Shown in pieces: positions 17,580 to 61,407 of a DNA stretch of 64,000 nt. The notes under the pieces are model-generated. The model was not told the origin of the DNA, ran no database searches, and worked only from the letters and a program-made list of their open reading frames with translations. The stretch is from positions 723,095-787,094 of the forward strand of contig NZ_CP087114.1 of the NCBI RefSeq assembly GCF_022559585.1. The letters run 5' to 3'. Position numbers and translations under genes: made by a program. The DNA comes from Bartonella machadoae (lineage in GTDB: Bacteria > Pseudomonadota > Alphaproteobacteria > Rhizobiales > Rhizobiaceae). Every line of letters starts with the position of its first letter. Positions within the stretch are counted from its first letter, which is position 1.

Positions 17580-17666
17580 TGCCGGGTGTGTTTATGTCAT
17601 ACAAGACCCTTTCGAGGGGAAAGCATAACAATGCACGTTCCGCTGTGTGTTTTGGAGCGCCCGGCA
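17580..17666 (+). ncRNA. C4-like structured leader RNA, copy 1 (before antirepressor gene)
   Basis: Outer stem TGCCGGGTGT (17580-17589) with GCGCCCGGCA (17657-17666); inner stem TTATGT with GCATAA around a CCC/GGGG hairpin; then a hairpin with the variable loop and a CATTCT/AGAGTG hairpin further downstream. The fold matches the other four copies, and the outer stem shows compensatory changes (TGCCGGG/CCCGGCA against TCGGG/CCCGA). Unlike the other copies, its variable loop (GTTCCGCT) has no clear match to the downstream ribosome-binding site. In phages P1/P7 a C4 RNA controls the antirepressor gene, and an antirepressor follows here. Confidence 0.6.
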
Positions 17667-17714
17667 TTCTTTGAGAGTGTTAATCAAAAACAATTAATAT
17701 CGCAAGGTGAAATT

Positions 17715-18461
17715 ATGACTAATTTAATTTACTTCAATAACAATCAAATTGATAATCAAAACAAATTTAACGATTCAACAGTTCAAACCATGTCGAGTAT
17801 TGAAATTGCAGAATTGTGTGGTAAACGGCATGACCATGTTATGCGTGATATCAAGAAAATGCTTGAAGAACTTAGCGCCCCCAAATTTGGGGTGGCGGAT
17901 TTTTTAGGCAGTTATATTGATGAACAAAAGAAACCACGCCCTTGTTATTACCTTCCAAAGCGTGAGTGTTTAATTCTTGTCTCAGGTTATAGCACAGCAT
18001 TAAGAGCAAAGATAATTGACCGATGGCAACAATTAGAACAGCAAGTAGCAGCACCGCAAATCGATTACTCTAGTCCACAAGCAATGATGGGATTTTTGAA
18101 TTATTTACAAGGGCAAATAGATCAAAAAGATAACGTGATTGCAGAATTAGAACCAAAGGCAATGGCTCTTGAACACTTGCAACGTTCAGATGGCTTATTT
18201 GGTATTATAGAGGCAGCTAAAGTATTAGAAGTAAAACCTAAGGACTTAAGTGATTACTTAAGAAGATATGGATGGGCTTATAGAAGGGGACCAGGCAGCC
18301 CATTATTACCTTATCAAGATAAAATCCAAAAAGGTCTGATGGATTGCACGACCATCATGATTCAAAAGCCAGATGGTACAGAAAAGTTGCTACCATCAAC
18401 TAAAATAACGTCAAAAGGATTGGCTTGCTTAAGAGAAGAACTTTACGGAAAATCGCAATAA
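17715..18461 (+). CDS. Phage antirepressor, Rha-type N-terminus with KilAC-like C-terminus
   Basis: 248 residues from the ATG at 17715 (Shine-Dalgarno CAAGGTG); upstream in-frame ATGs fall inside the structured leader and are not used. Residues 20-115 match phage regulatory protein Rha (MSSIEIAELCGKRHDHVMRDIKKML, YYLPKRECLILVSGYSTALRAKIIDRW). Residues 150-245 match the KilAC antirepressor domain (GLFGIIEAAKVLEVKPKDLSDYLRRYGWAYRR, ITSKGLACLREEL). It probably inactivates the lysogeny repressor. Preceded by a C4-like RNA, the arrangement used by P1/P7 for antirepressor control. Confidence 0.85.
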   Translation: MTNLIYFNNNQIDNQNKFNDSTVQTMSSIEIAELCGKRHDHVMRDIKKMLEELSAPKFGVADFLGSYIDEQKKPRPCYYLPKRECLILVSGYSTALRAKIIDRWQQLEQQVAAPQIDYSSPQAMMGFLNYLQGQIDQKDNVIAELEPKAMALEHLQRSDGLFGIIEAAKVLEVKPKDLSDYLRRYGWAYRRGPGSPLLPYQDKIQKGLMDCTTIMIQKPDGTEKLLPSTKITSKGLACLREELYGKSQ

Positions 18462-18623
18462 TTTTTAAAAACTCATATTGACATTAACAACCCCTTATGT
18501 TAACAGAATCACAAGTGCTTCAAAAACACGAAAATCACAAGCGGGTTAATCACGATAAGATTATTCCCCTGCTTTTAAAATACTGATTGTCTTTTATGCT
18601 ATTATTAGCATATATTGGTTACA

Positions 18624-18704
18624 TCGGGTGTGGTTATGCCATACAATACCCTTTCATGGGGAAAGCATAACGACGGACTTGTGACCGTGTTTTTGAGCGC
18701 CCGA
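18624..18704 (+). ncRNA. C4-like structured leader RNA, copy 2
   Basis: Outer stem TCGGGTGT (18624-18631) with GCGCCCGA (18697-18704); inner stem GTTATGC (18633-18639) with GCATAAC (18665-18671). The CGG/CCG hairpin (18674-18687) has loop ACTTGTGA. Loop CTTGTGA (18678-18684) can pair with TTACAAG (18738-18744; six Watson-Crick pairs and one G-U), which sits directly on the Shine-Dalgarno AAGAAAGG of the gene at 18758. The stem-loop GCCCTTATAGGG lies in between. Confidence 0.72.
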
Positions 18705-18757
18705 TGCCCTTATAGGGTTTTAAATCAAAAACGCATTTTACAAGAAAGGTTTTTCCA

Positions 18758-19063
18758 ATGGAAAACAACGAATTCAATATAACAACTGATTTTTTATGCA
18801 ATCTATGGATGGCTGTGTTTAAGGAAGTTAACAGTAATTATACTGAAGATCAATATAGCGATGCTTTAGTAGAACTTATGTCTGATATTGAAAAAGTTTT
18901 GGTTTTAAAATTACAAAACGAAATTCCAAATGTTGCAAAAGTCTTAGCAATTATTACAGAGTTTGGTAAATCTGAACCAATGCAATCAATAGCTAAATTG
19001 TTGAAAGTTTATAGCCCTGATATCAGTGATGATAATGTACACCATATAAACAAAGCAGCATAA
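18758..19063 (+). CDS. Small acidic prophage protein of unknown function under C4-like control
   Basis: 101 residues (begins MENNEFNITTDFLCNLWMAV), helical, acidic, no signal peptide. Its ribosome-binding site is the predicted target of the C4-like RNA just upstream. It is followed by the GC-rich hairpin at 19069-19083. I do not recognise the family. By analogy with icd/ant of P1, genes behind C4 RNAs act when the lysogenic state is released. Confidence 0.55.
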   Translation: MENNEFNITTDFLCNLWMAVFKEVNSNYTEDQYSDALVELMSDIEKVLVLKLQNEIPNVAKVLAIITEFGKSEPMQSIAKLLKVYSPDISDDNVHHINKAA

Positions 19064-19920
19064 ATAACGGCGCGGGGGGCGCCTTTCTTAGTGCAAAAAA
19101 AAGCCGTGTCATATAACGACGCGGCTTTAAGTTTAAGAAAAAGGAGGTATAAAAAAAAGAGAAAAAAACTATAATCAGTTTATACACAAAATGCATAAAA
19201 GATTCAAGAGTCTAGAACAAAAAAACCGTACCAAAATGAATTGATACGGCATTTCTGCAAAAACCATTTTACACAAGAAAAATAACAATGACCACAAACA
19301 AATTACATATTTTGTGTAAAAACGCAATATTGTTTTTATCAATTTGTATCTCAAAATGAATTATGCTACTGTTAATTCGCAACGTTTATAGCGTTGCATT
19401 TTTAGCCGCTCTTTAGGTTAAAATACTATCCCCTTTAAGAATGAAGCCGTGCCAATTAGTTTTGACACGGCTTTCTTTTGCAATACATGTTGGTTCCCTA
19501 ATTATATAACTAAATTGTGGATAAAAAACAAGTTTATTCTTATCATATTGTACTTTTAAAAAGAGTGTGATATCGTGAAAACATTAAGAAATTGACTAGC
19601 CTTGTTATGTTTTTACATGACAGGGCTTTTTTGTATCTCATCATTATGATGTTGTGTTTTGATTAAAATGATGCTATTTAAAAACTGCGAAACTCAAAAT
19701 GATTTTGTCTGTTTGATAAGGCAAGGCTCTATTTAGGCGGCGTTTTTATAACGTTGCCTTTTTTATTGTGCAATTGCATAAAATAAAACCGTGCCAAAAT
19801 TAATTGGCACGGTTCTATCCTATCTTTGTTGATCCGTAAATAATCAACCATAATATGGCACATTCTGTATAAAAACGCAAGAATTTATACTAAAAAATGT
19901 GTCTATTTAAAACTTCACAA
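19064..19920. other. Non-coding region with a cluster of terminator-like hairpins
   Basis: No gene. At least six hairpins are seen: GGCGC/GCGCC followed by TTTCTT (19069-19089); AAAGCCGTGTC...GACGCGGCTTT (about 19100-19129); CCGTACC...TGATACGG (about 19230); GCAACG...CGTTGC followed by TTTTTAG (about 19379-19404); AAGCCGTGCC...GACACGGCTTTCTTTT (about 19444-19478); CTAGCCTTG...CAGGGCTTTTTT (about 19595-19632); and AACCGTGCC...GGCACGGTT (about 19788-19814). The last ones repeat as degenerate units about 340 nt apart. The same AAGCCG hairpin recurs at the left end of each island. Confidence 0.5.
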
Positions 19921-21905: not shown

Positions 21906-22688
21906 TTATTCTTCAGTATCAATAATCTCTATAAGAATATCGCTCTTATTAACCTCCTTATTTTTTGGAACCTCTCTTATCTCACTTTTTCGATTAAGTT
22001 TTGCACGCCCACAAGCACGACCAAAGACCTTGATAGTATGAGAAACCTGAGCTTTTCCATAAACAGAGCCATAAATTTGCGCACAGCCACTTACTTTTGC
22101 ATAGTCATAAACCTTGCCATAAATCTTTGCACGGCTATTAACAACAGCATAGCCATAAACATGCGCATAACTAAAAAGACAAGCAGAGCCTAACACTCTA
22201 GCGTTGCCATAAAGCCTTGCATATTCAAAAAGATAACTATTATGAAAAAGATGCGCATTGCCATAAACATGGGCTTCAATTGAAACGCGGCTATTGCCAT
22301 AGACACGAGCCTTGCCATAAACATAGCCCGCCACATGCGCACTATCATAAACAAATGCATTGTCATAAATTTTTGCATATTGAGAAATAAACACCTTATC
22401 ATGCACCTGAGCATTGCCATAGACAAGACCACAAATTTGCGCATTGCCTCGTATTTTTGCATTGTCATAAACACGGGCATGTTTATAAACCAATGCATTA
22501 TCATAAACCCAGCAAAGACCGTTATGAGAAAGATTTTCTTCCTTTTCAATAAAGCCACCGAGTTGACCAGCCTTGACATCAGAAAAGCTTTTTAAAGCCT
22601 GAATGCGATAAAGCGTTGTAATTTTTTGTGTAATTTTATCTTTCAGTTGTTTTGTTTCATTAGTTAGTTTGTATTTTTTAGACATCAT
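21906..22688 (-). CDS. Hexapeptide-repeat (beta-helix-like) protein, E1 gene 5
   Basis: 260 residues from the ATG at 22688 (MMSKKYKLTNETK). Cap domain 1-60 (TLYRIQALKSFSDVKAGQLGGFIEKEENLSHNGLCWVYDNA), then about 28 repeats of (I/V)-Y-G-N-A-x to about residue 225, and a polar tail (KSEIREVPKNKEVNKSDILIEIIDTEE). No signal peptide, so probably cytoplasmic. Last gene of a five-gene operon on the minus strand. Nearly identical copies are found in E2 (39531) and E3 (57609). Function unknown. Confidence 0.7.
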   Translation of the reverse strand: MMSKKYKLTNETKQLKDKITQKITTLYRIQALKSFSDVKAGQLGGFIEKEENLSHNGLCWVYDNALVYKHARVYDNAKIRGNAQICGLVYGNAQVHDKVFISQYAKIYDNAFVYDSAHVAGYVYGKARVYGNSRVSIEAHVYGNAHLFHNSYLFEYARLYGNARVLGSACLFSYAHVYGYAVVNSRAKIYGKVYDYAKVSGCAQIYGSVYGKAQVSHTIKVFGRACGRAKLNRKSEIREVPKNKEVNKSDILIEIIDTEE

Positions 22689-22761
22689 AAAACCCCTCAC
22701 AATCTCTTTTGTGAAAAAAGTTGCATGGAAAATGTTGGAAAAATGGAATGACCGCGGCGCT

Positions 22762-23274
22762 TTAAAGCTTTAAAAAGGCTTTATTACGCAGCCAGATGAT
22801 TTTTATTTCATTATCGGAAAGCAATTCGATATAAGACCTTGTTTCAATATCATCGCGCGTTTTTTCTAAAATCATAACAATGCCGTGACTATTAGCATTC
22901 TCATAAATATGAACATAATTGACGACACGGGCGTGATCATAAATTTGTGCATTACCATAGACATGGGCATGGTCATAAATGATCGATTTACCAAGAACGA
23001 TAGCATTGCCATAGACATAACCAGCGATAATAGCGTTATGATAGACCCTAGCATTCTCAGAAACACGACCTGAGTTTAAAACCAGAGCATTACCATAAAC
23101 CCAGCAATTGCCATCATGTGATAAGTTTTTTTCGTTTTCAATAAAGCCACCGAGTTGACCAGCCTTAACATCAGCAAAGTCTCTTAAAGATTTAATGCGA
23201 TAAAGGGTATGATTGTTTAATACACGCGTTTCATTTGTTAATTCATATTTTTTAGTTACAACTGTACTAGCCAT
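22762..23274 (-). CDS. Hexapeptide-repeat protein, E1 gene 4
   Basis: 170 residues from the ATG at 23274 (MASTVVTKKYELTNE). Cap (LYRIKSLRDFADVKAGQLGGFIENEKNLSHDGNCWVYGNA) followed by about 12 repeats and a non-repeat C-terminus (GIVMILEKTRDDIETRSYIELLSDNEIKIIWLRNKAF). Its counterparts at 40390 and 58465 share this tail, but start with a different N-terminus (MQKKFALTNETRLF), so cap ends have been exchanged between genes. Confidence 0.7.
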   Translation of the reverse strand: MASTVVTKKYELTNETRVLNNHTLYRIKSLRDFADVKAGQLGGFIENEKNLSHDGNCWVYGNALVLNSGRVSENARVYHNAIIAGYVYGNAIVLGKSIIYDHAHVYGNAQIYDHARVVNYVHIYENANSHGIVMILEKTRDDIETRSYIELLSDNEIKIIWLRNKAFLKL

Positions 23275-23329
23275 GAGAAAACCCAATCTAAATATTTAAT
23301 AAATTTTGAATGAAATGTTCTTTTAAAGA

Positions 23330-23354
23330 GGGGCGCCCCCCGCCGCGCCCGCGG
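23330..23354 (-). terminator. GC-rich intergenic hairpin, example of a recurrent element
   Basis: GGGCGC (23331-23336) and GCGCCC (23345-23350) form a strong hairpin in the gap between two repeat-protein genes, followed on the minus strand by CTCTTTAAA. The same element, with small changes, occurs at 24130-24148, 24892-24910 (weakened), about 42203-42224, 59870-59888 and 60461-60479. It may attenuate transcription between operon genes or stabilise 3' ends. Confidence 0.5.
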
Positions 23355-23360
23355 TGTTAT

Positions 23361-24077
23361 TTATGCTACTTGATTTTCAACAATCTTTACAACGTTATCA
23401 CCTTCATAAATTTCACAATCCTTAGGAATCCCATATGCATAGTAAGGATTTTGCTTGATATATGAGCAACCATCTCTTTTTAATATTGCATTGCCATGCA
23501 CCAAACCTCTAATGGTATGATAACCAGTCACTTTTGCATTGCCATAAACAGAACCGTAGACCTTAGTATAACCTCCCACACTAGCATTGCCATAAACAGA
23601 GCCATAAATTTTTGCAGCCCCATTAACAACGGCATTCTCATAAACTTTTGCCTTTACTTTAATACGAGCACTACCTGATACTTTTGCATTACCATAAACC
23701 CGCGCCTTATGATAAACTCATGCTTTATTGGAAATATGGGCATTGTCATAAACATGGGCATGAGGATAAACGCGGGTTTTGTCGCAGACATGGGCATTGC
23801 CATAGACCTGACCACAAACTTGCGAATTGCCTCGTATTTTTGCATTCTCATAAACACGGGCATGACCATAAACCCATGCATTATCATATACCCAGCAGTT
23901 GCCATCATGAGAGAGGTTATCTTCATTTTCAATAAAGCCCCCCAATTGACCAGCCTTTACATCATCAAAATCTCTTAATGCGCGAATGCGATAAAGTGTA
24001 TAATCATCCAATACACAGGTTTCATTTGTTAATTCATATTTTTTGGATACAATTTTAGATACATTTATAGTGGTCAT
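23361..24077 (-). pseudogene. Hexapeptide-repeat protein, E1 gene 3, interrupted by a stop codon
   Basis: The frame is continuous for 239 codons from MTTINVSKIVSKKYELTNE to the stop at 23361, except for one in-frame TGA at 23718-23720 (DNAHISNKA, stop, VYHKARVYGNAKV). A tryptophan codon TGG at this place would fit the repeat (A-W-V-Y), so a single G-to-A change probably killed the gene. The intact 119-residue N-terminal product could still be made. Confidence 0.7.
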
Positions 24078-24158
24078 AGGTAAGTTCCCAATCTAAATAA
24101 TGGATTAAATTTGAATGAAGTTTAAAGAGGGGCGCCCCCGCCGCGCCCGTGGTGTTAT

Positions 24159-24842
24159 TTACGCAGCGTCTTTTATGGTCTGATCACAAATTTTGATTTT
24201 ACCATTCAATTTTTTTGTATCTATATATGAATTACCAAAAACACTCACTTTATTGCAAATGTATGTACCACCTGTAATTTTAGCATTGTCATAAATACAA
24301 GCATCATCACAAACCACAGCAAAAAACCAAACTTGTGCGTTACCAAAAATCTTTGCATTCCCATAAGCTTGCGCATAGCCAGTTAGTAAAGCGTTCTCAT
24401 AAATTTTTGCATTGCCTTTTATAACAGCCCTGTCAGAAACTTCAGAATTATTCAAAACACAGGCATGATTGTAAACAAAAGCCCTTCCCAAAACCCTAGC
24501 ATTATCAGCAATTTTTGCATTGTCATAAATTTTTGCACAATCAAAAACCTTTGCATTGTCACAAACCGTTGCATTATCGAAAACGCTAGCATAATTGAAA
24601 ATTTGCGCATTATCAGACACGACGCCATTGTCAGCAACCCACGCATCATCATAAACCCAGCAGTTACCATCATGAGAGAGATTATTTTCATTCTCAATAA
24701 AACCACCCAATTGACCAGCCTTGACATCAGAAAAATCTCTTAAAGCACGAATGCGATAAAGGGTACGATTACCAACGACATGCGTTTCATTTGTTAATTC
24801 ATATTTTTTGGATACAATTTTAGATACAGTTTTAGTGGTCAT
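24159..24842 (-). CDS. Hexapeptide-repeat protein, E1 gene 2
   Basis: 227 residues (MTTKTVSKIVSKKYELTNETHVV). Cap, then about 24 repeats dominated by (I/V/F)-x-D-N-A-x (VSDNAQIFNYASVFDNATVCDNAKVFDCAKIYDNAKI), ending in SYIDTKKLNGKIKICDQTIKDAA. Aspartate replaces glycine in many repeats, making this member more acidic. Its repeats resemble the first half of the double protein at 40976. Confidence 0.7.
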   Translation of the reverse strand: MTTKTVSKIVSKKYELTNETHVVGNRTLYRIRALRDFSDVKAGQLGGFIENENNLSHDGNCWVYDDAWVADNGVVSDNAQIFNYASVFDNATVCDNAKVFDCAKIYDNAKIADNARVLGRAFVYNHACVLNNSEVSDRAVIKGNAKIYENALLTGYAQAYGNAKIFGNAQVWFFAVVCDDACIYDNAKITGGTYICNKVSVFGNSYIDTKKLNGKIKICDQTIKDAA

Positions 24843-24921
24843 AGGGAGCTCCTAATCTAATAATCGATAAAATTTGAATGAAGTTTAAAGAGGGGCACCC
24901 CCGCAGCGCCCGTGGTGTTAT

Positions 24922-25650
24922 TTACGCAGCTTGATTTTCATCTTCAGAATTGCAATCATATTGGTAATCATCATCATAACCATAATCATCATAATATTCG
25001 TGACGATAATAATCATCTTCACTACCCAATTCCGGATATGCCTCGTCCCAAATATGATCATCAGCAGTTAAAGAGGCAGCACTATGTACATAAGAATTGC
25101 CTGAGATAAGAGCCCCACAAACCATGGCATCATCAAAGACACGGGAATCATCACAAATGTGAGAAGCGCCACTTATTTTTGCATTGCCACCGACATGGGC
25201 ATTATCACATATGACAGCATCATCAGAAACATGGGCATAATTCGTTACAGAGGCGTTATCATAAATTTTTGCATTCCCTTCAATTGCAACAGCATTTTGC
25301 ACATGGGCATTGCCATAAAGTTTTGCATTGCCTTTTATTGTACGACCTTCAAAAATAGCATTTCCATAAATTTTTGCCTTGCCATAAACGTCGACAAAAT
25401 AACCTTTTATTTTTGCATTTCCAAAAACACGAGCCTTTTCAAAGACACGAGCCTGATCATAAACCCAGCAGTCCCCATCATGAGAGAGATTACTTTCCTT
25501 TTCGATATACCCCCCAAGGTCACCTTTTTTGACATCAGCAAAGTCTTTTAAAGCACGGATACGGTATAATAAGTGACCATTAACGCATTGCATATCATAT
25601 GTGAATTCATATTTTTTGGATGATGTTTTCTTATTAACAGTAGCATTCAT
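24922..25650 (-). CDS. Hexapeptide-repeat protein with acidic C-terminus, E1 gene 1
   Basis: 242 residues (MNATVNKKTSSKKYEFTYDM). Cap (LLYRIRALKDFADVKKGDLGGYIEKESNLSHDGDCWVYDQA), about 22 repeats, then a strongly acidic Tyr/Asp-rich tail (about residues 200-242: EDDYYRHEYYDDYGYDDDYQYD). First gene of the operon; its ribosome-binding site AACTAGGAG is the predicted target of the C4-like RNA immediately upstream. A near-identical gene lies at 42233 in E2. Confidence 0.72.
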   Translation of the reverse strand: MNATVNKKTSSKKYEFTYDMQCVNGHLLYRIRALKDFADVKKGDLGGYIEKESNLSHDGDCWVYDQARVFEKARVFGNAKIKGYFVDVYGKAKIYGNAIFEGRTIKGNAKLYGNAHVQNAVAIEGNAKIYDNASVTNYAHVSDDAVICDNAHVGGNAKISGASHICDDSRVFDDAMVCGALISGNSYVHSAASLTADDHIWDEAYPELGSEDDYYRHEYYDDYGYDDDYQYDCNSEDENQAA

Positions 25651-25780
25651 AGCTAGTGTCTCCTAGTTGTTTGAAGTTTTCAGTTGATACCTATAAAGGT
25701 ATCGGGCGTTGAAAACACGGCAACTAGCCCGTTGTTACGCTTTCCCCATAAGGGTATTGTATGGCGTAACCACACCCGAC
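25651..25780 (-). ncRNA. C4-like structured leader RNA, copy 3 (heads E1 beta-helix operon)
   Basis: Read on the minus strand: outer stem TCGGGTGT (25772-25779) with ACGCCCGA (25702-25709); inner stem GTTACGC (25764-25770) with GCGTAAC (25734-25740); hairpin GATACC/GGTATC downstream. The variable loop CTAGTTG (25721-25727) is exactly complementary to CAACTAG (25663-25669), which is part of the Shine-Dalgarno CTAGGAG of the gene starting at 25650. Compared with the other copies, both the inner stem and the loop/target pair show compensated changes. Confidence 0.78.
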
Positions 25781-27073
25781 AAAATCATTATATGCGTTCA
25801 ATAGCATAAAAGAAAGTCAGTTCTCAAAAAGATGGGAAAGATTGTTTCGTAATCCATCCGCTAGTTGTTAGTGTTTTCATCACTTGAGTATTTATATAAC
25901 AAAATACATATTTATTGTCAACTATCTTTTATTATTTTTTGTGTTTTTTATAATTATTTTTTATGCCATTGTGTATAAATATGCGTCATATTCTTATAAA
26001 TATTTTCTGTTTTATTGACTCTATTTGACTCTATATTACACAATTGCGTTATTTTTCTCTTTTAAACATCATAATAACTAAAAACGCTCTCATAATGCCT
26101 ATTTTTAACTTTATAACGCATCATTATTTTTATGAGATAATTTGTGAATATTTTTGTGAATTTTTTATAAGAGGTTTGTAATTTAAACAGCTTTATAGAG
26201 ACCGCGTCTTTATAATCAGCGCTTTTGATTCAAATCTATTGTTTTGATTCATTCTCTATAGCCACCGCATCATTTTCATAAAACAAGGATAATATGATCA
26301 TGCGGTTTTGATTTGTTATAAAAACATTTTGAATTCTTATATCCTTATCAAAATACCTTTTTATGGGCTTTTGTCTCTTGTCAGTGATTAGCAGTCATTT
26401 TACCCCCTCATTTTTAAAAAAACTTTTCGATAAAAGTAAAAAACATTATATTTCAATATGTTAGTAAGTTTTGAGAAAAAAACCATCCCAATAAGATGAT
26501 TTATATAGACAATTAATGAGATAAGTTGATTAAAACTTGTCAGTATCTGTCAAAAAATTGAACTGACACCATTTATGATTTTAATGAATGATTAAACCAT
26601 GTTTTATGAGAGGGAATATAGCTCTTTAAATGCCTCTCAAAAGACCGTTTGTAATTATGAGATATGTTATAAAGAGTAACTTATAGATTTAAAGAGGGTT
26701 TTGAGTTTTGAAACTTTGTGTTTTAAAGAAAAAAATACTAAAAAGACAAAAAACAATCTCTCTTGATAAATACAACCTATTCATACGCATAATTCTCTTT
26801 AAAGAGAACTTAAGAGATATGAAAGGCATCATTTGAGATTGCGAGTTAATCTTTTAAAGGCAATGTAAAAAAATCTCATTCTATTTAAGATGGGATTTCT
26901 TAAAAGCCTTAAAGCAATCCAAATAAGAGTGTCTAAAAGTGCAAGGCTTCTCTTTTTAGAATTGCGCATAGTAAATCATTCCTTTTAAGATTATAGGTAA
27001 GCAACCTAATAAGAGAGTATAGATTATGGTTATAAGATCTATACCCCTTATGAGATTGGCATGCTTCATAAAT
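25781..27073. other. Non-coding region between C4-like RNA and restriction gene, E1
   Basis: About 1.3 kb without genes, well conserved in E2 (43101-44388) and partly in E3. It should contain the promoter for the leader RNA and beta-helix operon. Its middle (26401-26582) is the left arm of an inverted repeat whose other arm lies behind the restriction gene at 32309-32491. Confidence 0.55.
26401..26582 (+). repeat. Inverted repeat flanking the restriction gene, left arm (E1)
   Basis: This ~182 bp segment (starts TACCCCCTCATTTTTAAAA, ends CACCATTTATGATTTT) is the reverse complement, with scattered changes, of 32309-32491. It contains short motifs CTTGTCAG and CTGTCAAA that resemble each other. 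The pair encloses exactly the 5-kb restriction-modification gene. The same arrangement is present in E2. Confidence 0.75.
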
Positions 27074-40313: not shown

Positions 40314-40389
40314 AAGACCCCTCACAATCTCTCTTGTGAAAAAAGTTGCATGGAAAATATTGGAAAAATGGAGTGACCGCCGCGGCGCT

Positions 40390-40887: not shown

Positions 40888-40975
40888 AGGAACAATCCTT
40901 ATAGAATATGAGATTTGAAATGAAAGATTTGGAAAGCAGGCGCCCCCGCAACGCCTGTTATTTACGTTGCTTTAT

Positions 40976-42151: not shown

Positions 42152-42232
42152 AGGTAAGTTCCCAATCTTAATAATCAATAAAATTTGAATGAAGTCTAGA
42201 GAGGGGCGCCCCCGCCGCACCCGCGGTGTTAT

Positions 42233-42967
42233 TTATGCAGCTTGATTTTCATCTTCAGAATTGCAATCATATTCGTAATCATCATCATAACCATAATCAT
42301 CATAATATTCGTGACGATAGTAATCATCTTCACTACCCAATTCGGGATATGCCTCGTCCCAAATATGATCATCAGAAGTTAAAGAGGCGGCACTATGTAC
42401 ATAAGAATTGCCTGAGATAAGAGCCCCACAAACCACGGCATCATCAAAGACACGGGAATCATCACAAATGTGAGAAGCGCCACTTATTTTTGCATTGCCA
42501 CCGACATGGGCATTATCACATATGACAGCATCATCAGAAACATGGGCATAATTCGTTACAGAGGCGTTATCATAAATTTTTGCATTCCCTTCAATTGCAA
42601 CAGCATTTTGCACATGGGCATTGCCATAAAGTTTTGCATTGCCTTTTATTGTACGACCTTCGAAAATCGCATTTCCATAAATTTTTGCCTTGCCATAAAC
42701 GTCGACAAAATAACCTTTTATTTTTGCATTTCCAAAAACACGAGCCTTTTCAAAGACACGAGCCTGATCATAAACCCAGCAGTCCCCATCATGAGAGAGG
42801 TTACTTTCCTTTTCGATATACCCCCCAAGGTCACCTTTTTTGACATCAGCAAAGTCTTTTAAAGCACGTATACGGTATAATAAGTGACCATTGACGCATT
42901 GCATATCATATGTGAATTCATATTTTTTGGATGAGATAACGGGGGTGTTTTTAACTGTAGATTTCAT
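42233..42967 (-). CDS. Hexapeptide-repeat protein with acidic C-terminus, E2 gene 1
   Basis: 244 residues from the ATG at 42967 (MKSTVKNTPVISSKKYEF); the frame is open further upstream into the leader RNA, but the Shine-Dalgarno TAAGGA supports 42967. From SSKKYEF on it is nearly identical to the E1 protein at 24922, including the acidic Tyr/Asp tail, while the N-terminal dozen residues and the leader differ. The ribosome-binding site CAGTAAGGA pairs with the C4-like RNA loop. Confidence 0.72.
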   Translation of the reverse strand: MKSTVKNTPVISSKKYEFTYDMQCVNGHLLYRIRALKDFADVKKGDLGGYIEKESNLSHDGDCWVYDQARVFEKARVFGNAKIKGYFVDVYGKAKIYGNAIFEGRTIKGNAKLYGNAHVQNAVAIEGNAKIYDNASVTNYAHVSDDAVICDNAHVGGNAKISGASHICDDSRVFDDAVVCGALISGNSYVHSAASLTSDDHIWDEAYPELGSEDDYYRHEYYDDYGYDDDYEYDCNSEDENQAA

Positions 42968-43018
42968 AATTAAATCCTTACTGATTAGATGTTTTTCATT
43001 AACAACCCTATAAGGGCA

Positions 43019-43100
43019 TCGGGTGTTGAAAAACACGGCAGTAAGTCCGTTGCTTACACTTTTCCCTAATAAGGGTATTGTATGGTGTAAGCACACCCGA
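43019..43100 (-). ncRNA. C4-like structured leader RNA, copy 4 (heads E2 beta-helix operon)
   Basis: Minus strand: outer stem TCGGGTGT (43093-43100) with ACACCCGA (43019-43026), all Watson-Crick here; inner stem GCTTACAC (43085-43092) with GTGTAAGC (43052-43059), fully compensated against GTTATGC/GCATAAC of other copies. Loop CTTACTG (43039-43045) is exactly complementary to CAGTAAG (42977-42983) at the Shine-Dalgarno of the gene at 42967. Confidence 0.78.
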
Positions 43101-44388
43101 CAGAATCTTAATATACTAACAAGAGCATAAAAGACAGCCAGTTTTTAAAAAGTATGGAAAAGATCTTACGTGATCCATTCGCTTACTGTTTCAGTGTTTT
43201 TCAATCACTTGAGTATTTATATAACAAAATACGTATTTATTGTCAACTATCTTTTATTATTTTTTGTGTTTTTTATAATTATTTTTTATACCATTATGTA
43301 TAAATATGCGTCATATGCTTATGAATATTTTCTGTTTTATTGCATCTATTTGACTCTATATTACGCAATTGCGTTATTTTTCTCTTTTAAACATCATAAT
43401 AACTAAAAACGCTCTCATAATGCCTATTTTTAACTTTATAACGCATCATTATTTTTATGAGATAATTTGTGAATATTTTTGTGAATTTTTTATAAGAGGT
43501 TTGTAATTTAAACAGCTTTATAGAGACCGCGTCTTTATAATCAGCGCTTTTGATTCAAATCTATTGTTTTGATTCATTCTCTATAGCCACCGCATCATTT
43601 TCATAAAACAAGGATAATATGATCATGCGGTTTTGATTTGTTATAAAAACATTTTGAATTCTTATATCATTATCAAAATACCTTTTTATGGGCTTTTGTC
43701 TCTTGTCAGTGATTAGCAGTTATTTTACCCCCTCATTTTTAAAAAAACTTTTCGATAAAAGTAAAAAACATTATATTTCAATATGTTAGTAAGTTTTGAG
43801 AAAAAAACCATCCCAATAAGATGATTTATATAGACAATTAATGATATCAATTGAATAAAACCTGTCAGTATCTGTCTAAAAATTGAACAGACAGCATTTA
43901 TGATTTTAATGAATAATTAAATCATGTTTTATGAGAGGGTATATAATCCTTTAAAGCCTTTCAAAAGACAAGAAATGGTTATGAAGCATGTTATAAAGAG
44001 TAACTTATCAATTTGAATGGGGTTTTGAGTTTTGAAACTTTGTGTTGTAAAGAAAAAAACACTAAAAAGATAAAAAACATTATATTCCAATATATTAAGT
44101 CTTATCAATTGTTCAAAAAACAATCTCTATTGATAAAGACAACCTATTCATACGCATAATTCTCTTTAAAGAGAACTTAAGAGATATGAAAGGCATCATT
44201 TGAGATTGCGATATAATCTTTTAAAGGCAATATGAGAGTGTCTAAAAGTGCAAGGCTTCTCTTTTTAGAATAGCGCATGGTAAATCATTCCTTTTAAGAT
44301 TGTACATAAGCAAGCTAATAAGAGAATATAGATGATGATTATAAGATCTATACCCTTATGAGATTGGCATGCTTCATAAGTCTTAAGT
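43101..44388. other. Non-coding region between C4-like RNA and restriction gene, E2
   Basis: Conserved with 25781-27073. Contains the left inverted-repeat arm (about 43726-43907). Short open frames on either strand have no family resemblance. A 60-bp stretch near 44060-44120 repeats part of the arm (AACATTATATTCCAATAT). Confidence 0.5.
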
Positions 44389-49932: not shown

Positions 49933-51549
49933 TTATTGCCTTGCATTCTCGTTTTTTACCAAAGGATGCCATTCATAGTAGGTACTCGATTTACTTGTCT
50001 GATGGGTTATAAACTTTTTGCGAATGTGGTTTGTATGGCATAAAAGCTCTAAAGCTTGTTTGACCGCTTCCTTGTCTTTTAAATGCGCCCAGCAGCGTCT
50101 GTAGATATCACGAGCAGTAAAAACCTCAGGTAAGCAATTACAGCGCTCTATAATCAAATTTGCACGCTCCTTTACCAAGATATCGCCCGCAGTATAAAAC
50201 CGTTTCGCATGGCTTAACAGATAGTTTGACCAACGCAAGGCTGTTGAGAGAGAAGGCAAAGTGATCTCAAAACGCCCATCCTCAACAAGTTCGATAATGA
50301 GGGCAAGGCTTGCTATGGTTTTTGGCATTTTTAAAAGATGCGCTTGGTAAGAGACAGAAACTTTGCTTTCCTTGATTTCTTTATGATGATTTTCCCACCA
50401 TTCACGAAACAATTCTTGAGCATTAGCAGCAAAGCGCATGATCCGTGGGTGCTTAGGTGATCCCAAGGGTTTGTCATAAAAAGAACGAAGCACCTTTTCA
50501 TATTCTTGATAGGCTTCTTGATTGGGATTTTTATCTTTCCATTCCCACTCTTGGTTTTCATCCGGCCACACCATCATTTGAAACCGTTGCAATAAACCGT
50601 CATCTGCTTTTCCAGAAAGCATTGCCTGAATGATAGGAATAATCCGAGAAGGTTGTATTCCCCCAATCATTGAAAGCATTACATTGGGAATATGAATCGT
50701 TCCACGTCCAATACGGTCATAGGTATAGAGTTGATCCCCATTAAAAACTTGTAAATAAAACCCACGGTCTGTTTGATATTCCTTAAGTTCCAAGTTTGCT
50801 AAAAAACCAGAAAGTTCATCACGAACCATCAATAATCCTCGCGGGTTTTCATTGAGTAATTCCCCAAGCTTTTCGACGGTCACATCATTGACAATAAAGC
50901 GAGAGAGGCAATCATCTTTTTCATTGTCTTTAGAAAGGGTTTCCGACAAAAGAGCATTGGCAGCCTCAGAATCTCCTTTTTTAAGAGCTTTAGAAGCTTG
51001 TTTTCTCTTTTCTTTCTGATTGAGCTCCTCAAGGATTTCTTTAATTTTTGCACGTTTTTTTTGTTTTTTCCATTCTTGATACCATTCTTTTTGCAGGTGA
51101 GCGATAGGTGTTAAAGCGGCTTGCATGGCAGGTGTTTTTCGTGCAGAAGGTTGACCAATAATCATCCCCCATAGATTAGGAACAATCTTCCAATTATTAC
51201 TATGCTGTTTTGGAGCGATACGAACCCCATTGCCAATCACGGTTGCTAAAGCACAGATAGCAGAGACAGCCACAAAATCGACAGGGGATTGTTGATGGTT
51301 AGCAATATCATAAATATACCTTCCCAAGACCAATGGAACTTGTGTAGCATGAAAAGGCTCGACCGGTAAAAGAGCGGTGTTAATCGGTTTTAATTCACCC
51401 CAGCCCATTTGTTGCAAAGCCTGTTCATAAGGGATGGCTTGTAAACAGGGATGCTCCTTTAAAGAGACAGGGGTGTTATCGTTATCAGTATCATTTAAAG
51501 AAGTATTGCCATTTTTATTGGTTAAATCAGTTTTATTTTTGTGGTCCAT
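49933..51549 (-). CDS. DUF3987 (YfjI-like) P-loop protein, intact copy (E2)
   Basis: 538 residues. N-terminal linker, then an ATPase-like core: P-loop variant GQPSARKTPAMQAAL (about 135-150), a Walker-B-like region LLMVRDELSGFLANLE (about 235-250), and IGRGTIHIPNVMLSMIGGIQP (about 275-295); the C-terminal third is helical with a winged-helix-like end (FTARDIYRRCWAHLKDKEAVKQAL). Family members accompany primases in prophages and plasmids and are thought to act as replicative helicases. Lies between the primase remnant and the restriction gene. Confidence 0.78.
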   Translation of the reverse strand: MDHKNKTDLTNKNGNTSLNDTDNDNTPVSLKEHPCLQAIPYEQALQQMGWGELKPINTALLPVEPFHATQVPLVLGRYIYDIANHQQSPVDFVAVSAICALATVIGNGVRIAPKQHSNNWKIVPNLWGMIIGQPSARKTPAMQAALTPIAHLQKEWYQEWKKQKKRAKIKEILEELNQKEKRKQASKALKKGDSEAANALLSETLSKDNEKDDCLSRFIVNDVTVEKLGELLNENPRGLLMVRDELSGFLANLELKEYQTDRGFYLQVFNGDQLYTYDRIGRGTIHIPNVMLSMIGGIQPSRIIPIIQAMLSGKADDGLLQRFQMMVWPDENQEWEWKDKNPNQEAYQEYEKVLRSFYDKPLGSPKHPRIMRFAANAQELFREWWENHHKEIKESKVSVSYQAHLLKMPKTIASLALIIELVEDGRFEITLPSLSTALRWSNYLLSHAKRFYTAGDILVKERANLIIERCNCLPEVFTARDIYRRCWAHLKDKEAVKQALELLCHTNHIRKKFITHQTSKSSTYYEWHPLVKNENARQ

Positions 51550-57608: not shown

Positions 57609-58391
57609 TTATTCTTCAGTATCAATAATCTCTATAAGAATATCGCTCTTATTAACCTCCTTATTTTTGGGAACCTCTCTTATCTCACTTTTTCGATTCA
57701 GTTTTGCACGCCCACAAGCACGACCAAAGACCTTGATAGTATGAGAAACCTGAGCTTTACCATAAACAGAGCCATAAATTTGCGCACAGCCACTCACTTT
57801 TGCATAGTCATAAACCTTGCCATAAATTTTGGCACGGCTATTAACAACAGCATAGCCATAAACATGCGCAGTGCTAAAAAGACAAGCAGAGCCTAACACT
57901 CTAGCGTTGCCATAAAGCCTTGCATATTCAAAAAGATAACTATTATGAAAAAGATGCGCATTGCCATAAACATGGGCTTCAATTGAAACGCGACTATTGC
58001 CATAGACACGAGCCTTGCCATAAACATAGCCAGCCACATGCGCACTATCATAAACAAATGCATTGTCATAAATTTTTGCATATTGAGAAATAAACACCTT
58101 ATCATGCACCTGAGCATTGCCATAGACAAGACCACAAATTTGCGCATTGCCTCGTATTTTTGCATTGTCATAAACACGGGCATGTTTATAAACCAATGCA
58201 TTATCATAAACCCAGCAAAGACCGTTATGAGAAAGATTTTCTTCCTTTTCAATAAAGCCACCGAGTTGACCAGCCTTGACATCAGAAAAGCTTTTTAAAG
58301 CCTGAATGCGATAAAGCGTTGTAATTTTTTGTGTAATTTTATCTTTCAGTTGTTTTGTTTCATTAGTTAGTTTGTATTTTTTGGACATCAT
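57609..58391 (-). CDS. Hexapeptide-repeat protein, E3 gene 5
   Basis: 260 residues from the ATG at 58391, near-identical to 21906 and 39531. Cap, about 28 repeats, polar tail. Last gene of the E3 operon; strong conservation in three islands suggests either recent copying or selection. Confidence 0.7.
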   Translation of the reverse strand: MMSKKYKLTNETKQLKDKITQKITTLYRIQALKSFSDVKAGQLGGFIEKEENLSHNGLCWVYDNALVYKHARVYDNAKIRGNAQICGLVYGNAQVHDKVFISQYAKIYDNAFVYDSAHVAGYVYGKARVYGNSRVSIEAHVYGNAHLFHNSYLFEYARLYGNARVLGSACLFSTAHVYGYAVVNSRAKIYGKVYDYAKVSGCAQIYGSVYGKAQVSHTIKVFGRACGRAKLNRKSEIREVPKNKEVNKSDILIEIIDTEE

Positions 58392-58464
58392 AAGACCCCT
58401 CACAATCTCTCTTGTGAAAAAAGTTGCATGGAAAATGTTGGAAAAAGGGAATGACCGCCGCGCT

Positions 58465-58962
58465 TTAAAGATTTAAAAAGGCTTTATTACGCAGCCAGAT
58501 GATTTTTATTTCATTATTGGAAAGCAATTCGATATAAGACCTTGTTTCAATATCATCACGTGTCTTTTCTAAAATCATAACAATGCCGTGACTATTAGCA
58601 TTTTCATAAATATGAACATAATTGACGACACGGGCGTGATCATAAATTTGTGCATTACCATAGACATGAGCATGGTCATAAATGATCGATTTACCAAGAA
58701 CGATAGCATTTCCATAGACATAACCAGCGATAATAGCGTTATGATAGACCCTAGCATTTTCAGAAACCCGACCTGAGTTTAAAACCAGAGCATTACCATA
58801 AACCCAGCAATTGCCATCATGGGAGAGGTTGCTTTCATTTTCGATAAAACCACCGAGTTGACCAGCCTTGACATCAGAAAAGCTTTTTAAAGCCTGAATG
58901 CGGTAAAATATGCGATTACCAAAGAGACGCGTTTCATTTGTAAGTGCAAATTTCTTTTGCAT
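58465..58962 (-). CDS. Hexapeptide-repeat protein, E3 gene 4
   Basis: 165 residues (MQKKFALTNETRLFGNRIFYRIQALKSFSDVKAG), with the same C-terminal tail as 22762 and 40390. About 12 repeats. Confidence 0.7.
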   Translation of the reverse strand: MQKKFALTNETRLFGNRIFYRIQALKSFSDVKAGQLGGFIENESNLSHDGNCWVYGNALVLNSGRVSENARVYHNAIIAGYVYGNAIVLGKSIIYDHAHVYGNAQIYDHARVVNYVHIYENANSHGIVMILEKTRDDIETRSYIELLSNNEIKIIWLRNKAFLNL

Positions 58963-59031
58963 AGGAACAATCCTTATAGAATGAGATTTTAAATGAAAGA
59001 TTTGGAAAGCAGGCGCCCCCCGCGCCGTTAT

Positions 59032-59814
59032 TTATGCTGCTTCATTTTCGATAATTTTTTCACGGCTATTGATTATAACATCATCACTTACTTCATTACG
59101 AACATACGCATTTCCAAATATTTTTGCATTGCCATAAATTTTGATATTTTTTTCAATAACCGCTTTTCCATAAACCCTAGCATTTTCAAAAATATGAGCA
59201 CCCTCACTTACATAAGCAGAGCCCGATACTTTTGCATTGCCATAAACAGAGCCATTCACATAAGCACTATGCAAAACTTTTGCATTGTCATATATTTTTG
59301 CCTCTATAGTAATAAAGGCTTTTCCATAAACCACGGCATTGTCATAAACTTGACCACAAACCTTGGCATTCCCATTAACCACGCACTTGCCATAAACCCA
59401 TCCCTTGTCTCGAAACCACATATTCCCTGAGATACTAGCATGATCATAAACCTTGGCATTGTCATAAACATGGGTATCATGACCATAAACTTTAGCATGA
59501 TCACTAATAACAGCATTCCCATAAGCTTTAGCATGTTTAGCAACAACAGCTTCATTACGAAGTTTTGCATTTTCAGACACGACGCCATTGTCAGCAACCC
59601 ACGCCTCATCATAAACCCAGCAATTACCATCATGAGAGAGATTATCTTCATTTTCAATAAAGCCACCCAATTGACCAGCCTTTACATCATCAAAATCCCT
59701 TAATGCGCGAATGCGATAAAGATTTATAGGCACAAATTTACCATCCTTATTTTGGTAAATTTCTTTGATTTCATTTGTTAATTCATATTTTTTAGTTACA
59801 ACTGTACTAATCAT
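59032..59814 (-). CDS. Hexapeptide-repeat protein, E3 gene 3
   Basis: 260 residues from the ATG at 59814 (MISTVVTKKYELTNEIKEIYQNKDGKFV). The cap has an insertion of about seven residues before LYRIRALRDFDD. About 30 repeats, including Trp-containing ones (NMWFRDKGWVYGKCVVNGNAKV), then SDDVIINSREKIIENEAA. The starting residues match those of E1 gene 4, showing exchange of 5' ends. Confidence 0.7.
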   Translation of the reverse strand: MISTVVTKKYELTNEIKEIYQNKDGKFVPINLYRIRALRDFDDVKAGQLGGFIENEDNLSHDGNCWVYDEAWVADNGVVSENAKLRNEAVVAKHAKAYGNAVISDHAKVYGHDTHVYDNAKVYDHASISGNMWFRDKGWVYGKCVVNGNAKVCGQVYDNAVVYGKAFITIEAKIYDNAKVLHSAYVNGSVYGNAKVSGSAYVSEGAHIFENARVYGKAVIEKNIKIYGNAKIFGNAYVRNEVSDDVIINSREKIIENEAA

Positions 59815-59910
59815 GAGAAAACCCAATCTAAATAATCGATAAAATTTGAATGAAATGTTCTTAAGAAGGGGGCGCCCCCGCCGCGCCCGCGGTGTTATTT
59901 ATGCTGCTTT

Positions 59911-60408
59911 TTATGGACGACACATTACAAAGGAAATCTCGCCATAAGGAGAGAGCCGTTCTGTATAAACATTCTCTCTTGTATTGCCATAGGCATTTTT
60001 AGTAACAATAGCCATGCCATAGGCACTTGCATTTTCATAAATATGGACATTACTGATAATTTTTGCACTATCAAAAACCCGTGCGTTATCATAGACATGG
60101 GCATTGGCAAAAACCTTGGCAAAATCATAAACATGCGCATTGCCATAAACAAAACCACCAACCGCAGCATTGCCATAAACCCTAGCATTATCATAAACAC
60201 GACCGGGTTTTAAAACATACGCATTATCAGCAACCCAGCAATTGCCATCATGAGAGAGATTACTCTCATCTTCAATAAAGCCCCCCAATTGACCAGCCTT
60301 AACATCATCAAAATCTCTTAAAGCACGGATGCGATAAAGGGTATGATTATCAAAGACATGGGTTTCATTTGTAATTTCATATTTTTTGGATACAGTTATA
60401 GTATTCAT
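59911..60408 (-). CDS. Hexapeptide-repeat protein, E3 gene 2
   Basis: 165 residues (MNTITVSKKYEITNETHVFDNHTLYRIRALRDFDDVKAG). About 13 repeats (DNARVYGNAAVGGFVYGNAHVYDFAKVFANAHVYDNARV) and a short unique tail (ERLSPYGEISFVMCRP). No close counterpart in E1 or E2. Confidence 0.7.
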   Translation of the reverse strand: MNTITVSKKYEITNETHVFDNHTLYRIRALRDFDDVKAGQLGGFIEDESNLSHDGNCWVADNAYVLKPGRVYDNARVYGNAAVGGFVYGNAHVYDFAKVFANAHVYDNARVFDSAKIISNVHIYENASAYGMAIVTKNAYGNTRENVYTERLSPYGEISFVMCRP

Positions 60409-60489
60409 AGGTAAGTTCCTAATCTAAATAATGGATAAAATTTGAATGAAATTTAGAGAGGGGCGCCCCCGCCGCGCCTGCGGTGTTAT

Positions 60490-61275
60490 TTACGCAGCAT
60501 CTTTAAGAGACTGATCATTAGTACAAATATCATCACGAATTTTTATATGGCTATTAACCACGGCATTGCCATAAATTTTTACATGATGATCGATATTTGA
60601 TTTACCATAAACCTTGGCATTATCATAAATTCTTGCCAAGCAACCAACGCGCGCCGAGCCAGAGACTTTTGCATTGCCATAGACACTTGCATAATCCTTA
60701 ATCCAAGCATTGCAAAAGACATGGGCATTATCATAAATATGTGCCCATACATAAATACGTGATTTACCATAAACATGGGCATTTCCAAAAACATAGCCAC
60801 AAATATGTGCCCTCTCATAAACCCGTGCGTTATCATAAACCTTGGCACCATCAGCAATAGTAGCATTATCACTTACAACGGCATTGCCATAGACATGACC
60901 ACAGACCCTAGCGTTATCGTTAATTTTTGCATTTTCATAAATATGAGCTTTATAATCAAATACCCATGCCTTGCCATTTACAGTAGCATTTCCATAAACC
61001 TTGGCTTGTCTAAAAACTTTAGCTTCTTGATAAATTTTAGCATTCTCATAAAGCTTGGCATCCAAAAAAACCGCGGCATTATCATAAATCCAACAATTGC
61101 CATCATGAGAGAGGTTATCTTCGTTTTCAATAAAACCACCCAATTGACCAGCCTTTACATCATCAAAATCTCTTAATGCGCGAATGCGGTGTAAAGTAAT
61201 CCCATCAAAAGTGAAGTTTTCAGTGGTTAATTCATATTTTTTGGATAATGTTTGTTTATTAACAGTAGCATTCAT
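60490..61275 (-). CDS. Hexapeptide-repeat protein, E3 gene 1
   Basis: 261 residues (MNATVNKQTLSKKYELTTENFTFDG). Shares its first residues and leader with E1 gene 1, but the body differs: about 32 repeats, no acidic tail, end KIRDDICTNDQSLKDAA as in E1 gene 2. Its Shine-Dalgarno CATGTAGGAG pairs with the C4-like loop upstream. Confidence 0.72.
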   Translation of the reverse strand: MNATVNKQTLSKKYELTTENFTFDGITLHRIRALRDFDDVKAGQLGGFIENEDNLSHDGNCWIYDNAAVFLDAKLYENAKIYQEAKVFRQAKVYGNATVNGKAWVFDYKAHIYENAKINDNARVCGHVYGNAVVSDNATIADGAKVYDNARVYERAHICGYVFGNAHVYGKSRIYVWAHIYDNAHVFCNAWIKDYASVYGNAKVSGSARVGCLARIYDNAKVYGKSNIDHHVKIYGNAVVNSHIKIRDDICTNDQSLKDAA

Positions 61276-61327
61276 AGCTAGTGTCTCCTACATGTTTGAA
61301 GTTTTCAGTTGACACCCTTATAAGACG

Positions 61328-61407
61328 CCGGGCGTTGAAAACACGGCATGTAGTCCGTTGTTATGCTTTTCCCATGAAAGGGTATTGTATGGCATAACCA
61401 CACCCGA
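61328..61407 (-). ncRNA. C4-like structured leader RNA, copy 5 (heads E3 beta-helix operon)
   Basis: Minus strand: outer stem CGGGTGT (61400-61406) with ACGCCCG (61329-61335); inner stem GTTATGC with GCATAAC; loop CTACATG (61347-61353) exactly complementary to CATGTAG (61288-61294) at the Shine-Dalgarno of the gene at 61275. The body is almost identical to copy 3, yet both the loop and its target have changed together. Confidence 0.78.

Follow-up and report, generated by a model that had tools for sequence, protein, structure and literature searches.

Several phage and bacterial systems provide points of comparison for an RNA element that occurs in five copies within 64,000 nucleotides (nt) of the Bartonella machadoae genome (contig NZ_CP087114.1, positions 723095-787094 of 2,708,601 bases; this whole stretch is called the window below). 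A first-pass annotation of the window had described the five copies as C4-like leader RNAs whose loops match the ribosome-binding site of the gene behind them. The closest described system is the C4 RNA of phages P1 and P7 (RF01695), together with c4-a1b1 (RF03163), both of which are included in a table of Weinberg 2010. In the P1 record, a1, b1, C4, a2 and b2 are annotated, icd starts directly after b2, and a1b1 is marked only as a putative C4 target. When P1 C4 was checked directly, b' was found in the loop of the second hairpin and a' unpaired 3' of that hairpin. The short words of the Bartonella RNAs are named after those of P1: a1 b1 upstream, a' b' within the RNA, and a2 b2 downstream. 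For P1 C4, RNase P, action in trans and heteroimmunity are described (PMC5320573, PMC12197685), and a difference of 4 nt between P1 and P7 is reported to be enough to stop cross-reactivity (Citron and Schuster 1990, via PMC5320573). The Bartonella cassettes resemble this system in the order a1 b1-RNA-a2 b2, in the position of b2 at the Shine-Dalgarno (SD) sequence, in having promoter-like sites upstream of a1b1, and in having antirepressor genes among their targets (an antirepressor operon in P1/P7). They differ in that neither the C4 nor the c4-a1b1 model matches them, their RNA has an extra inner stem and a conserved AUACAAUACCC...GGGGAA, many of their targets are beta-solenoid genes, and 37 distinct copies are present in one genome.

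Complementary words on both sides of the RNA also occur in P1, P4 and Gifsy-1. The P4 region carries C4 (74.9 bits) and isrK, while c4-a1b1 scores 44.1 bits there, slightly short of its cut-off (46.7). Its CI RNA, with seqA and seqC, is comparable in scoring as C4, in having words on both sides and in its role in satellite immunity, but works by transcription termination (PMC4825925). In Gifsy-1, Rfam models place a c4-a1b1 overlapping isrK first, then a C4 match, and then an antirepressor-like gene, which is called anrP here from its position as described in PMC4825925 (Hershko-Shalev 2016). According to that paper, the long Gifsy-1 transcript is itself inactive by cis pairing, whereas the short terminated IsrK acts in trans to increase translation of the read-through anrP message by up to 171-fold. 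IsrK is compared there with P4 seqA, and the terms 'C4 RNA', 'C4 antisense' and 'phage P1' are absent from the main text. The IsrK/STnc1160/anrP system is similar in combining c4-a1b1, C4 and an antirepressor-like gene and in the activation in trans by short IsrK. It differs in being a single studied locus with a coupled small open reading frame (ORF), orf45, and in that isrK has no match in the Bartonella window.

The Rfam family that matches the Bartonella copies, with the same stems, is RF02221 (sRNA-Xcc1), which has no clan listed in Rfam and is not placed with C4. Northern blots of X. campestris show its type member as an RNA of 88 nt (PMC2996969), and homologue transcripts have been reported in Xylella (PMC12189769). 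Unlike the cassettes as interpreted here, sRNA-Xcc1 is described as trans-acting, and the window copies score under its cut-off. No mechanism has been established for this small RNA (sRNA) family; judged by its sequences, it resembles an antisense system of the C4 type. The literature searched, which excluded most subscription papers, contained no link between sRNA-Xcc1 and C4 and no mention of these RNAs in Bartonella. A multi-copy precedent exists in Acinetobacter baumannii, where 21 C4-like Group 1 sRNAs with variable a' words occur in one genome and RNA-seq suggests processing (PMC5320573). These sRNAs differ in carrying the C4 motif by Rfam and in having proposed bacterial targets, and neither local targets nor a1b1 are described in the text consulted. 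The Bartonella RNAs, by comparison, are members of RF02221, outnumber this set and have local targets that could be identified.

Cassettes in the window and their RNA family

Four of the five window copies have a1 b1 upstream and a2 b2 downstream, with b2 at the ribosome-binding site. An intact cassette reads, in order, a TTGACA promoter candidate, a1, b1, about 80 nt, the RNA, a2, b2 on the SD, and ATG. The RNA itself is a predicted three-way junction of about 90 nt in which an outer stem closes two hairpins, with b' in the second loop and a' in the unpaired stretch 3' of it, as in C4; the minimum-energy fold of the copy at 17580 departs from this consensus, and for the copy at 25693-25780 the prediction shifts the register of the loop hairpin. 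All five copies fold with z-scores between -2.2 and -4.1. By eye, a1 sits in the loop of a small GGTG/CACC-like hairpin, and b1 continues into AGCGG or AGCGA.

The complementarity between loop and SD region that the first-pass annotation had noticed in four copies is confirmed, with three exact matches and, for TTACAAG, a single mismatch that forms a G-U pair. Its description of one matching word per copy is accurate for b, but there are actually two words, a and b, each at three places. Also overlooked were the upstream a1 b1 set, 41 further RF02221 matches in the genome, and the decay of the words at 17580, where each of the four sites has 2 mismatches; the five proposed copies are thus four complete predicted circuits and one decayed copy. 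The features are given below with bit scores for RF02221 and for R1, a covariance model built from the 37 distinct copies of the genome; 'exact' denotes an exact complement of a' or b'.

17580..17674, + strand: cassette 1, C4-like RNA with decayed words, no exact a or b (RF02221 37.8, R1 76.5)
17715..18461, + strand: gene behind cassette 1, Rha + KilAC/ANT antirepressor, 248 amino acids (aa) (PF09669 3.7e-19, PF03374 3e-22, PHROG_63 anti-repressor Ant)
18478..18483, + strand: cassette 2, TTGACA, -35-like box of upstream promoter candidate (from genome-wide cassette promoter enrichment, as for the promoter candidates below)
18520..18527, + strand: cassette 2, a1 TCAAAAAC, exact
18535..18541, + strand: cassette 2, b1 TCACAAG, exact
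18622..18714, + strand: cassette 2, C4-like/sRNA-Xcc1-like RNA, b' 18678-18684, a' 18689-18696 (RF02221 50.0, R1 102, fold)
18725..18732, + strand: cassette 2, a2 TCAAAAAC, exact
18738..18744, + strand: cassette 2, b2 TTACAAG in SD region, one mismatch (G-U pair)
18758..19063, + strand: cassette 2 target, 101 aa, PHROG_33768 (function unknown), no Pfam family
25916..25921, - strand: cassette 3, TTGACA of upstream promoter candidate, TATATA 17 nt on
25873..25879, - strand: cassette 3, a1 TGAAAAC, exact
25861..25867, - strand: cassette 3, b1 CAACTAG, exact
25693..25780, - strand: cassette 3, C4-like RNA, b' 25721-25727, a' 25710-25716 (RF02221 52.8, gathering 53; R1 98.9)
25676..25682, - strand: cassette 3, a2 TGAAAAC, exact
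25663..25669, - strand: cassette 3, b2 CAACTAG overlapping SD (CAACTAGGAG), exact
24922..25650, - strand: cassette 3 target P0001, YdcK-type beta-solenoid, 242 aa, first gene of array (PF18836 2.9e-10)
43241..43246, - strand: cassette 4, TTGACA of upstream promoter candidate
43196..43203, - strand: cassette 4, a1 TGAAAAAC, exact
43182..43188, - strand: cassette 4, b1 CAGTAAG, exact
43010..43101, - strand: cassette 4, C4-like RNA, b' 43039-43045, a' 43027-43034 (RF02221 45.0, R1 93.8)
42991..42998, - strand: cassette 4, a2 TGAAAAAC, exact
42977..42983, - strand: cassette 4, b2 CAGTAAG at SD, exact
42233..42967, - strand: cassette 4 target P0002, beta-solenoid, 244 aa, by eye almost the same as P0001; start probably at 42967 rather than at the mechanical GTG 43096
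61547..61552, - strand: cassette 5, TTGACA of upstream promoter candidate
61504..61510, - strand: cassette 5, a1 TGAAAAC, exact
61491..61497, - strand: cassette 5, b1 CATGTAG, exact
61319..61408, - strand: cassette 5, C4-like RNA, b' 61347-61353, a' 61336-61342 (RF02221 44.4, R1 97.7)
61301..61307, - strand: cassette 5, a2 TGAAAAC, exact
61288..61294, - strand: cassette 5, b2 CATGTAG overlapping SD (CATGTAGGAG), exact
60490..61275, - strand: cassette 5 target P0003, beta-solenoid, 261 aa, first gene of array (PF18836 3.7e-20)

A strict promoter and terminator scan of 25600-26000 returned nothing; its -10 rule requires a final T and so excludes the TATATA of cassette 3.

The five segments are real and homologous. 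R1 finds exactly these five in the window at 76.5-102 bits (the five belong to the model), and the independent RF02221 model, run at relaxed thresholds, picks the same five at 37.8-52.8 bits. None exceeds the RF02221 gathering score of 53, and an Rfam scan of the window at gathering cut-offs returned no entry. Membership in the C4 family itself is unsupported, as RF01695 gave no match in the window at E<=5 or in the genome at E<=10, which counts against a C4-type interpretation. RF01695 was equally without a match at five RF02221 loci elsewhere. No match to isrK (RF01394) or c4-a1b1 was found in the window at E<=5, and phage records searched by DNA similarity gave two weak matches only, which were of no use. 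For the other part of the original proposal, a leader that blocks the ribosome-binding site of its own gene, there is strong support from the anatomy, the word order, the two-word design and the SD position, all as annotated for P1, and from word matching far beyond permutation in wide sets.

In the whole genome, RF02221 has 46 matches at E<=1, six of them over the cut-off, and a model made from the genome's own copies finds 47, one more. The same RF02221 search of 14 control genomes gave below-cut-off matches in two. Nine of the 46 cassettes duplicate another over the approximately 280 nt compared, so that 37 distinct cassettes remain. Six of the nine duplicates correspond to a single block repeated about 51.9 kilobases apart (G000:C1:34022-71688 and 85913-123580), which looks like a tandemly duplicated prophage.

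Word matching and structural covariation

Among the 37 distinct cassettes, which are related to each other, exact matches to the cassette's own RNA occur at b1 in 32, b2 in 32, a1 in 31 and a2 in 29. When flanks were permuted 10,000 times, the corresponding means were 2.2, 1.8, 4.6 and 4.4, with maxima of 9, 9, 14 and 15. The matches, including the loop/target complementarity first noted in four copies, are far above chance. Single mismatches occur at a2 in L004, L030, L034, L040 and L043, at b2 in L015, L027 and L023, at b1 in L023 and L039, and at a1 in L016. Because a1b1 is as well kept as a2b2, it is taken to be functional. In all 32 cassettes with an exact b2, this word ends 8-12 nt 5' of an ATG. 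A less demanding measure, a 7-mer common to the RNA and its own flank, is found upstream in 34 and downstream in 35 of 37 (permuted means 19.6 and 9.1), totals that none of 20,000 permutations reached.

The words are nearly private to each cassette. There are 23 distinct b words, 11 a words and 36 (a,b) pairs; both words match exactly downstream in 26 of 37 own combinations compared with 2 of 1332 non-own combinations, and these two involve L007 and L020, which are near-duplicates. When duplex energies are summed, 34 of 36 RNAs pair best with their own downstream site and 30 of 36 with their own upstream site (L046, the copy at 17580, was left out). Positions 4, 5 and 6 of b each show all four Watson-Crick pairs with b2, with nearly all cells paired, among 34 cassettes (L046, L021 and L029 set aside), and positions 62-65 in the loop keep their match although few positions vary more. 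The most telling control comes from cassettes with near-identical RNA bodies. None of the 8 pairs that are less than 3% apart share both words (3 share b and 4 share a), and only one of the 22 pairs less than 6% apart has both words in common. Thus, the words differ where the body hardly does, and they agree at three places.

The stem covariation noted earlier in the window likewise holds on all 37 distinct rows, where 99.2% of 850 stem cells are paired and both sides have changed in 8 of 23 pairs; neither value was reached in 500 shuffles. The number of further pair types, 21, is unexceptional in the same alignment, being reached in 81 of 500 shuffles.

Related loci behave similarly. A model of the 37 cassettes matches in 52 of 71 genomes of the genus, own included, and the 19 others, several of which are 2.3-2.9 Mb, gave none at E<=0.001 under stricter filters, so that the distribution of the RNA in the genus is patchy. 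The best locus was taken from 29 of the 51 other positive genomes, and all 28 distinct loci have a 7-mer in common with both of their own flanks (permuted means 14.2 upstream and 13.1 downstream; totals reached in 0 of 20,000 permutations). In the phylum, 55 of 398 sampled genomes, the present one among them, have RF02221 at E<=1e-4 (40 over the cut-off), against 0 of 14 controls, and 30 loci outside the genus carry words upstream in 27 and downstream in 19 cases, compared to permuted means of 7.2 and 4.3 (again 0 of 20,000). A pattern scan of named genomes found at least 119 loci, with titles for 80, none of them Bartonella; 110 were left after 9 near contig ends and 1 duplicate were dropped. 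Among these listed loci, words are found upstream in 102, downstream in 96, on both sides in 92, only upstream in 10, only downstream in 4, and on neither side in 4, against permuted means of 39.2 upstream and 30.9 downstream; no permutation of 20,000 reached the 7-mer totals. The RF02221 family thus has the C4 layout. The four listed loci without words, which include two Synechococcus contigs, may be chance pattern matches. Separately, L139, L146 and L152 (Xanthomonas melonis, [Pseudomonas] boreopolis and Xanthomonas prunicola) and L080 carry an upstream a1b1 and no convincing downstream site, and their RNAs possibly act in trans or have lost their targets.

A proposed antisense circuit and its alternatives

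Each intact cassette very probably constitutes a self-contained antisense circuit, although we infer its transcription, processing and pairing in the cell. A sigma70-like upstream promoter would start a leader that includes a1 and b1. Some 80 nt downstream of these words, the RNA would fold into its three-way junction, with b' presented in a loop and a' left unpaired. The a2b2 set, which has the same sequences as a1b1, precedes the gene, and pairing of a'b' at this site would block ribosome entry. The genes blocked in this way would be phage antirepressors (AntA/ANT, Rha) and those YdcK-type beta-solenoid genes that head an array. It is somewhat probable that, in addition, a short a1b1 RNA competes for a'b' and lifts the block, such that the ratio of leader to antisense RNA sets the switch. 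This step is suggested because Gifsy-1 IsrK overlaps c4-a1b1 just upstream of C4 and activates anrP in trans, and by the same analogy a1b1 RNA might be the anti-antisense partner in the P1, P4, Gifsy-1 and RF02221 systems. Finally, because nearly every mobile element has its own word pair, coexisting elements might avoid silencing each other, comparable to P1/P7 heteroimmunity, a role on which our judgment is evenly divided. Promoter-like sites (>=10/12) are found 5' of a1b1 in 32 of 36 cassettes (1.8 when shuffled; 0 of 36 in each of two control stretches).

A number of observations, in addition to the missing C4 match, weigh against the circuit or parts of it. Only 13 of 36 cassettes show a clear promoter-like site in the interval from a1b1 to the RNA (0.8 shuffled), all of them AntA or Rha/ANT cassettes plus the truncated L021. 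Outside the genus, promoter-like sites occur 5' of a1b1 in 3 of 29 loci at the same threshold, and 5' of the RNA in 0 of 29, where they show no enrichment. The terminator after a1b1 is weak in the B. machadoae genome, being present at <=-5 kcal/mol in 9 of 37 cassettes (1.4 shuffled), and an alignment of the leaders from 29 of the 37 gives a consensus fold of just -0.51 kcal/mol, almost no signal; a separate short a1b1 RNA is thus less sure here than elsewhere. The permutations are uncorrected for kinship among the cassettes, and the 7-mer baselines are high. Random re-pairing of existing words gives a mean of 34.1 distinct pairs compared with 35 of 36, and 40% of shuffles score as high, so the pairing of a with b is itself no evidence of selection. 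Some cassettes are defective: L046 has no exact word at all, L029 lacks the upstream set and matches poorly at a2, and L021 (with its repeat L022) has no downstream site and bears the upstream words of L009. The 150 upstream bases of L021 are identical to those of L009, as are those of L039 to L042 and of L030 to L014. The upstream words of L039 and L030 are accordingly partly mismatched to their own RNA, and L039, L030 and L021/L022 are by these identities apparent recombinants. In the listed named loci, the 96 downstream words include some chance 7-mers (L146 and L152 by eye), only 51 of the 96 lie 5-12 nt 5' of an ATG (control 12%), and at ten loci, including that of Xanthomonas melonis, the words are present upstream and absent downstream.

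Alternative explanations must account for the same words. A leader that acts in cis only, hiding the SD in its fold and choosing between a1b1 and a2b2 for a'b' during transcription with no free antisense RNA, could draw on the presence of all three word sets on one strand within about 220 nt, which could share one transcript, and on the cis-inactive long transcript of Gifsy-1. We consider it unlikely, given that the RNA body is a closed, covarying unit, that the RF02221 type member runs as a discrete RNA on Northern blots, and that a promoter-like site stands right before the RNA in the 13 cassettes mentioned. A second concern is that a1b1 might serve as an attenuator in which antisense RNA binding controls terminator read-through, as for P4 CI, so that repression is mainly transcriptional. 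Terminator-like hairpins (<=-5 kcal/mol) do follow a1b1 in 82 of the 110 listed named loci (15.3 shuffled; 5 of 109 in a control stretch, 5.0 shuffled) and in 20 of 30 loci outside the genus (4.5 shuffled), P1 itself has one of -8.5 kcal/mol, and P4 carries the same Rfam set of c4-a1b1 (slightly under its cut-off), isrK and C4. This possibility is nevertheless doubtful for the B. machadoae cassettes, where b2 lies on the SD at a narrow distance, pointing to translation, where the terminator is weak, and where an inner promoter follows it in part of the cassettes.

Other explanations fare worse. If sRNA-Xcc1 RNAs were general trans-acting sRNAs with many chromosomal or host targets, as might be gathered from published target predictions for the Xcc and Xylella homologues (PMC2996969, PMC12189769) and from the ten loci with upstream words only, then the 7-mers that loop and spacer share with their own flanks at most listed loci would be hard to understand, and we regard this as improbable. 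It is hardly credible that the words serve a DNA-binding protein as operators or are left over from duplication. Although a1b1 and a2b2 are direct repeats, a'b' are reverse complements located in a hairpin loop and an unpaired stretch, the words vary between copies while matching at three places within each, and the layout is annotated as RNA target sites in P1; both readings were rejected on these grounds.

Under the antisense circuit, the class of mechanism is already known; what is new, as far as our searches go, is the assignment to this family, the scale, the targeting of solenoid genes and the word differences matched at three sites. The proposal would give a mechanism and local targets to a widespread Rfam sRNA family hitherto treated as a trans-acting virulence RNA, and it links RF02221 to three classic phage systems, P1 C4, P4 CI and Gifsy-1 IsrK. 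RF02221 could be a second wide lineage of three-RNA switches (target, antisense and anti-antisense leader), with dozens of insulated codes under diversifying selection in Bartonella, a view for and against which the arguments are about balanced. If it is true, many related prophages, satellites and plasmids can share a cell with their immunities kept apart, and a new code requires concerted change at three sites. The 36 word pairs, nearly private by prediction, are a natural set for the diversification of RNA specificity with three sites matched and offer ready parts for insulated gene switches, and the role of a1b1 becomes testable across many natural replicates.

Targets and mobile setting

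Target classes of the 37 cassettes, set by comparison with Pfam-identified exemplars, comprise 18 beta-solenoid proteins (PF18836), 11 AntA/ANT, 5 Rha with or without ANT, 1 small unknown and 2 unrecognisable; antirepressors are thus the predicted targets of 16 cassettes. The solenoid genes of the window form tandem arrays of four to five (21906-25650, 39531-42967 and 57609-61275, all on the - strand; partly by Pfam and partly by eye), and the C4-like RNA sits 5' of the first gene only in each array. In the neighbourhood of these cassettes are a type ISP restriction-modification gene, DUF3987 and a phage integrase, a mobile setting that fits an immunity role. The RNA is also found on plasmids of B. 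tribocorum, B. krasnovii and B. harrusi, with words intact by eye, and a plasmid collection gave near matches only to four Bartonella plasmids. The locus on B. harrusi plasmid pBHa (L230) was considered as a possible duplicate of the chromosomal B. machadoae cassette L025; the two are very alike by eye over about 340 nt and are not identical over 549 nt.

Outside Bartonella, 19 target proteins include 5 Bro-N (that of L092 under the Pfam cut-off), 3 Rha, 1 KilA-N, 1 P22_AR_N, 1 SymE and 8 without a family. Fifty targets from the listed named set include 16 Bro-N, 2 P22_AR_N, 2 SymE and 1 each of KilA-N, AntA and Rha, the rest being mostly without a family. SymE behind an RF02221 RNA fits the published sRNA-Xcc1/symE integron cassette of Xanthomonas, for which 'a divergent regulatory mechanism' was suggested (PMC12444791). 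The first ORF behind the downstream word has 28-32 aa at 32 of 87 listed loci (among L107-L225), resembling a coupled leader peptide and reminiscent of Gifsy-1 orf45.

Several neighbouring features of the window can also be recorded. A Type ISP single-polypeptide restriction-modification gene, examined over its whole length with Pfam, lies near the arrays at 27074-32041(-), as does a putative second one of the same length at 44389-49356(-), and an ORF with a Type ISP specificity domain at 62618-63907(-) is near a solenoid array. DUF3987 is split between two ORFs in 32602-34202(-) and occupies one ORF in 49933-51549(-). A sub-threshold GcvB match (32 bits vs 42) lies at 19581-19765(+).

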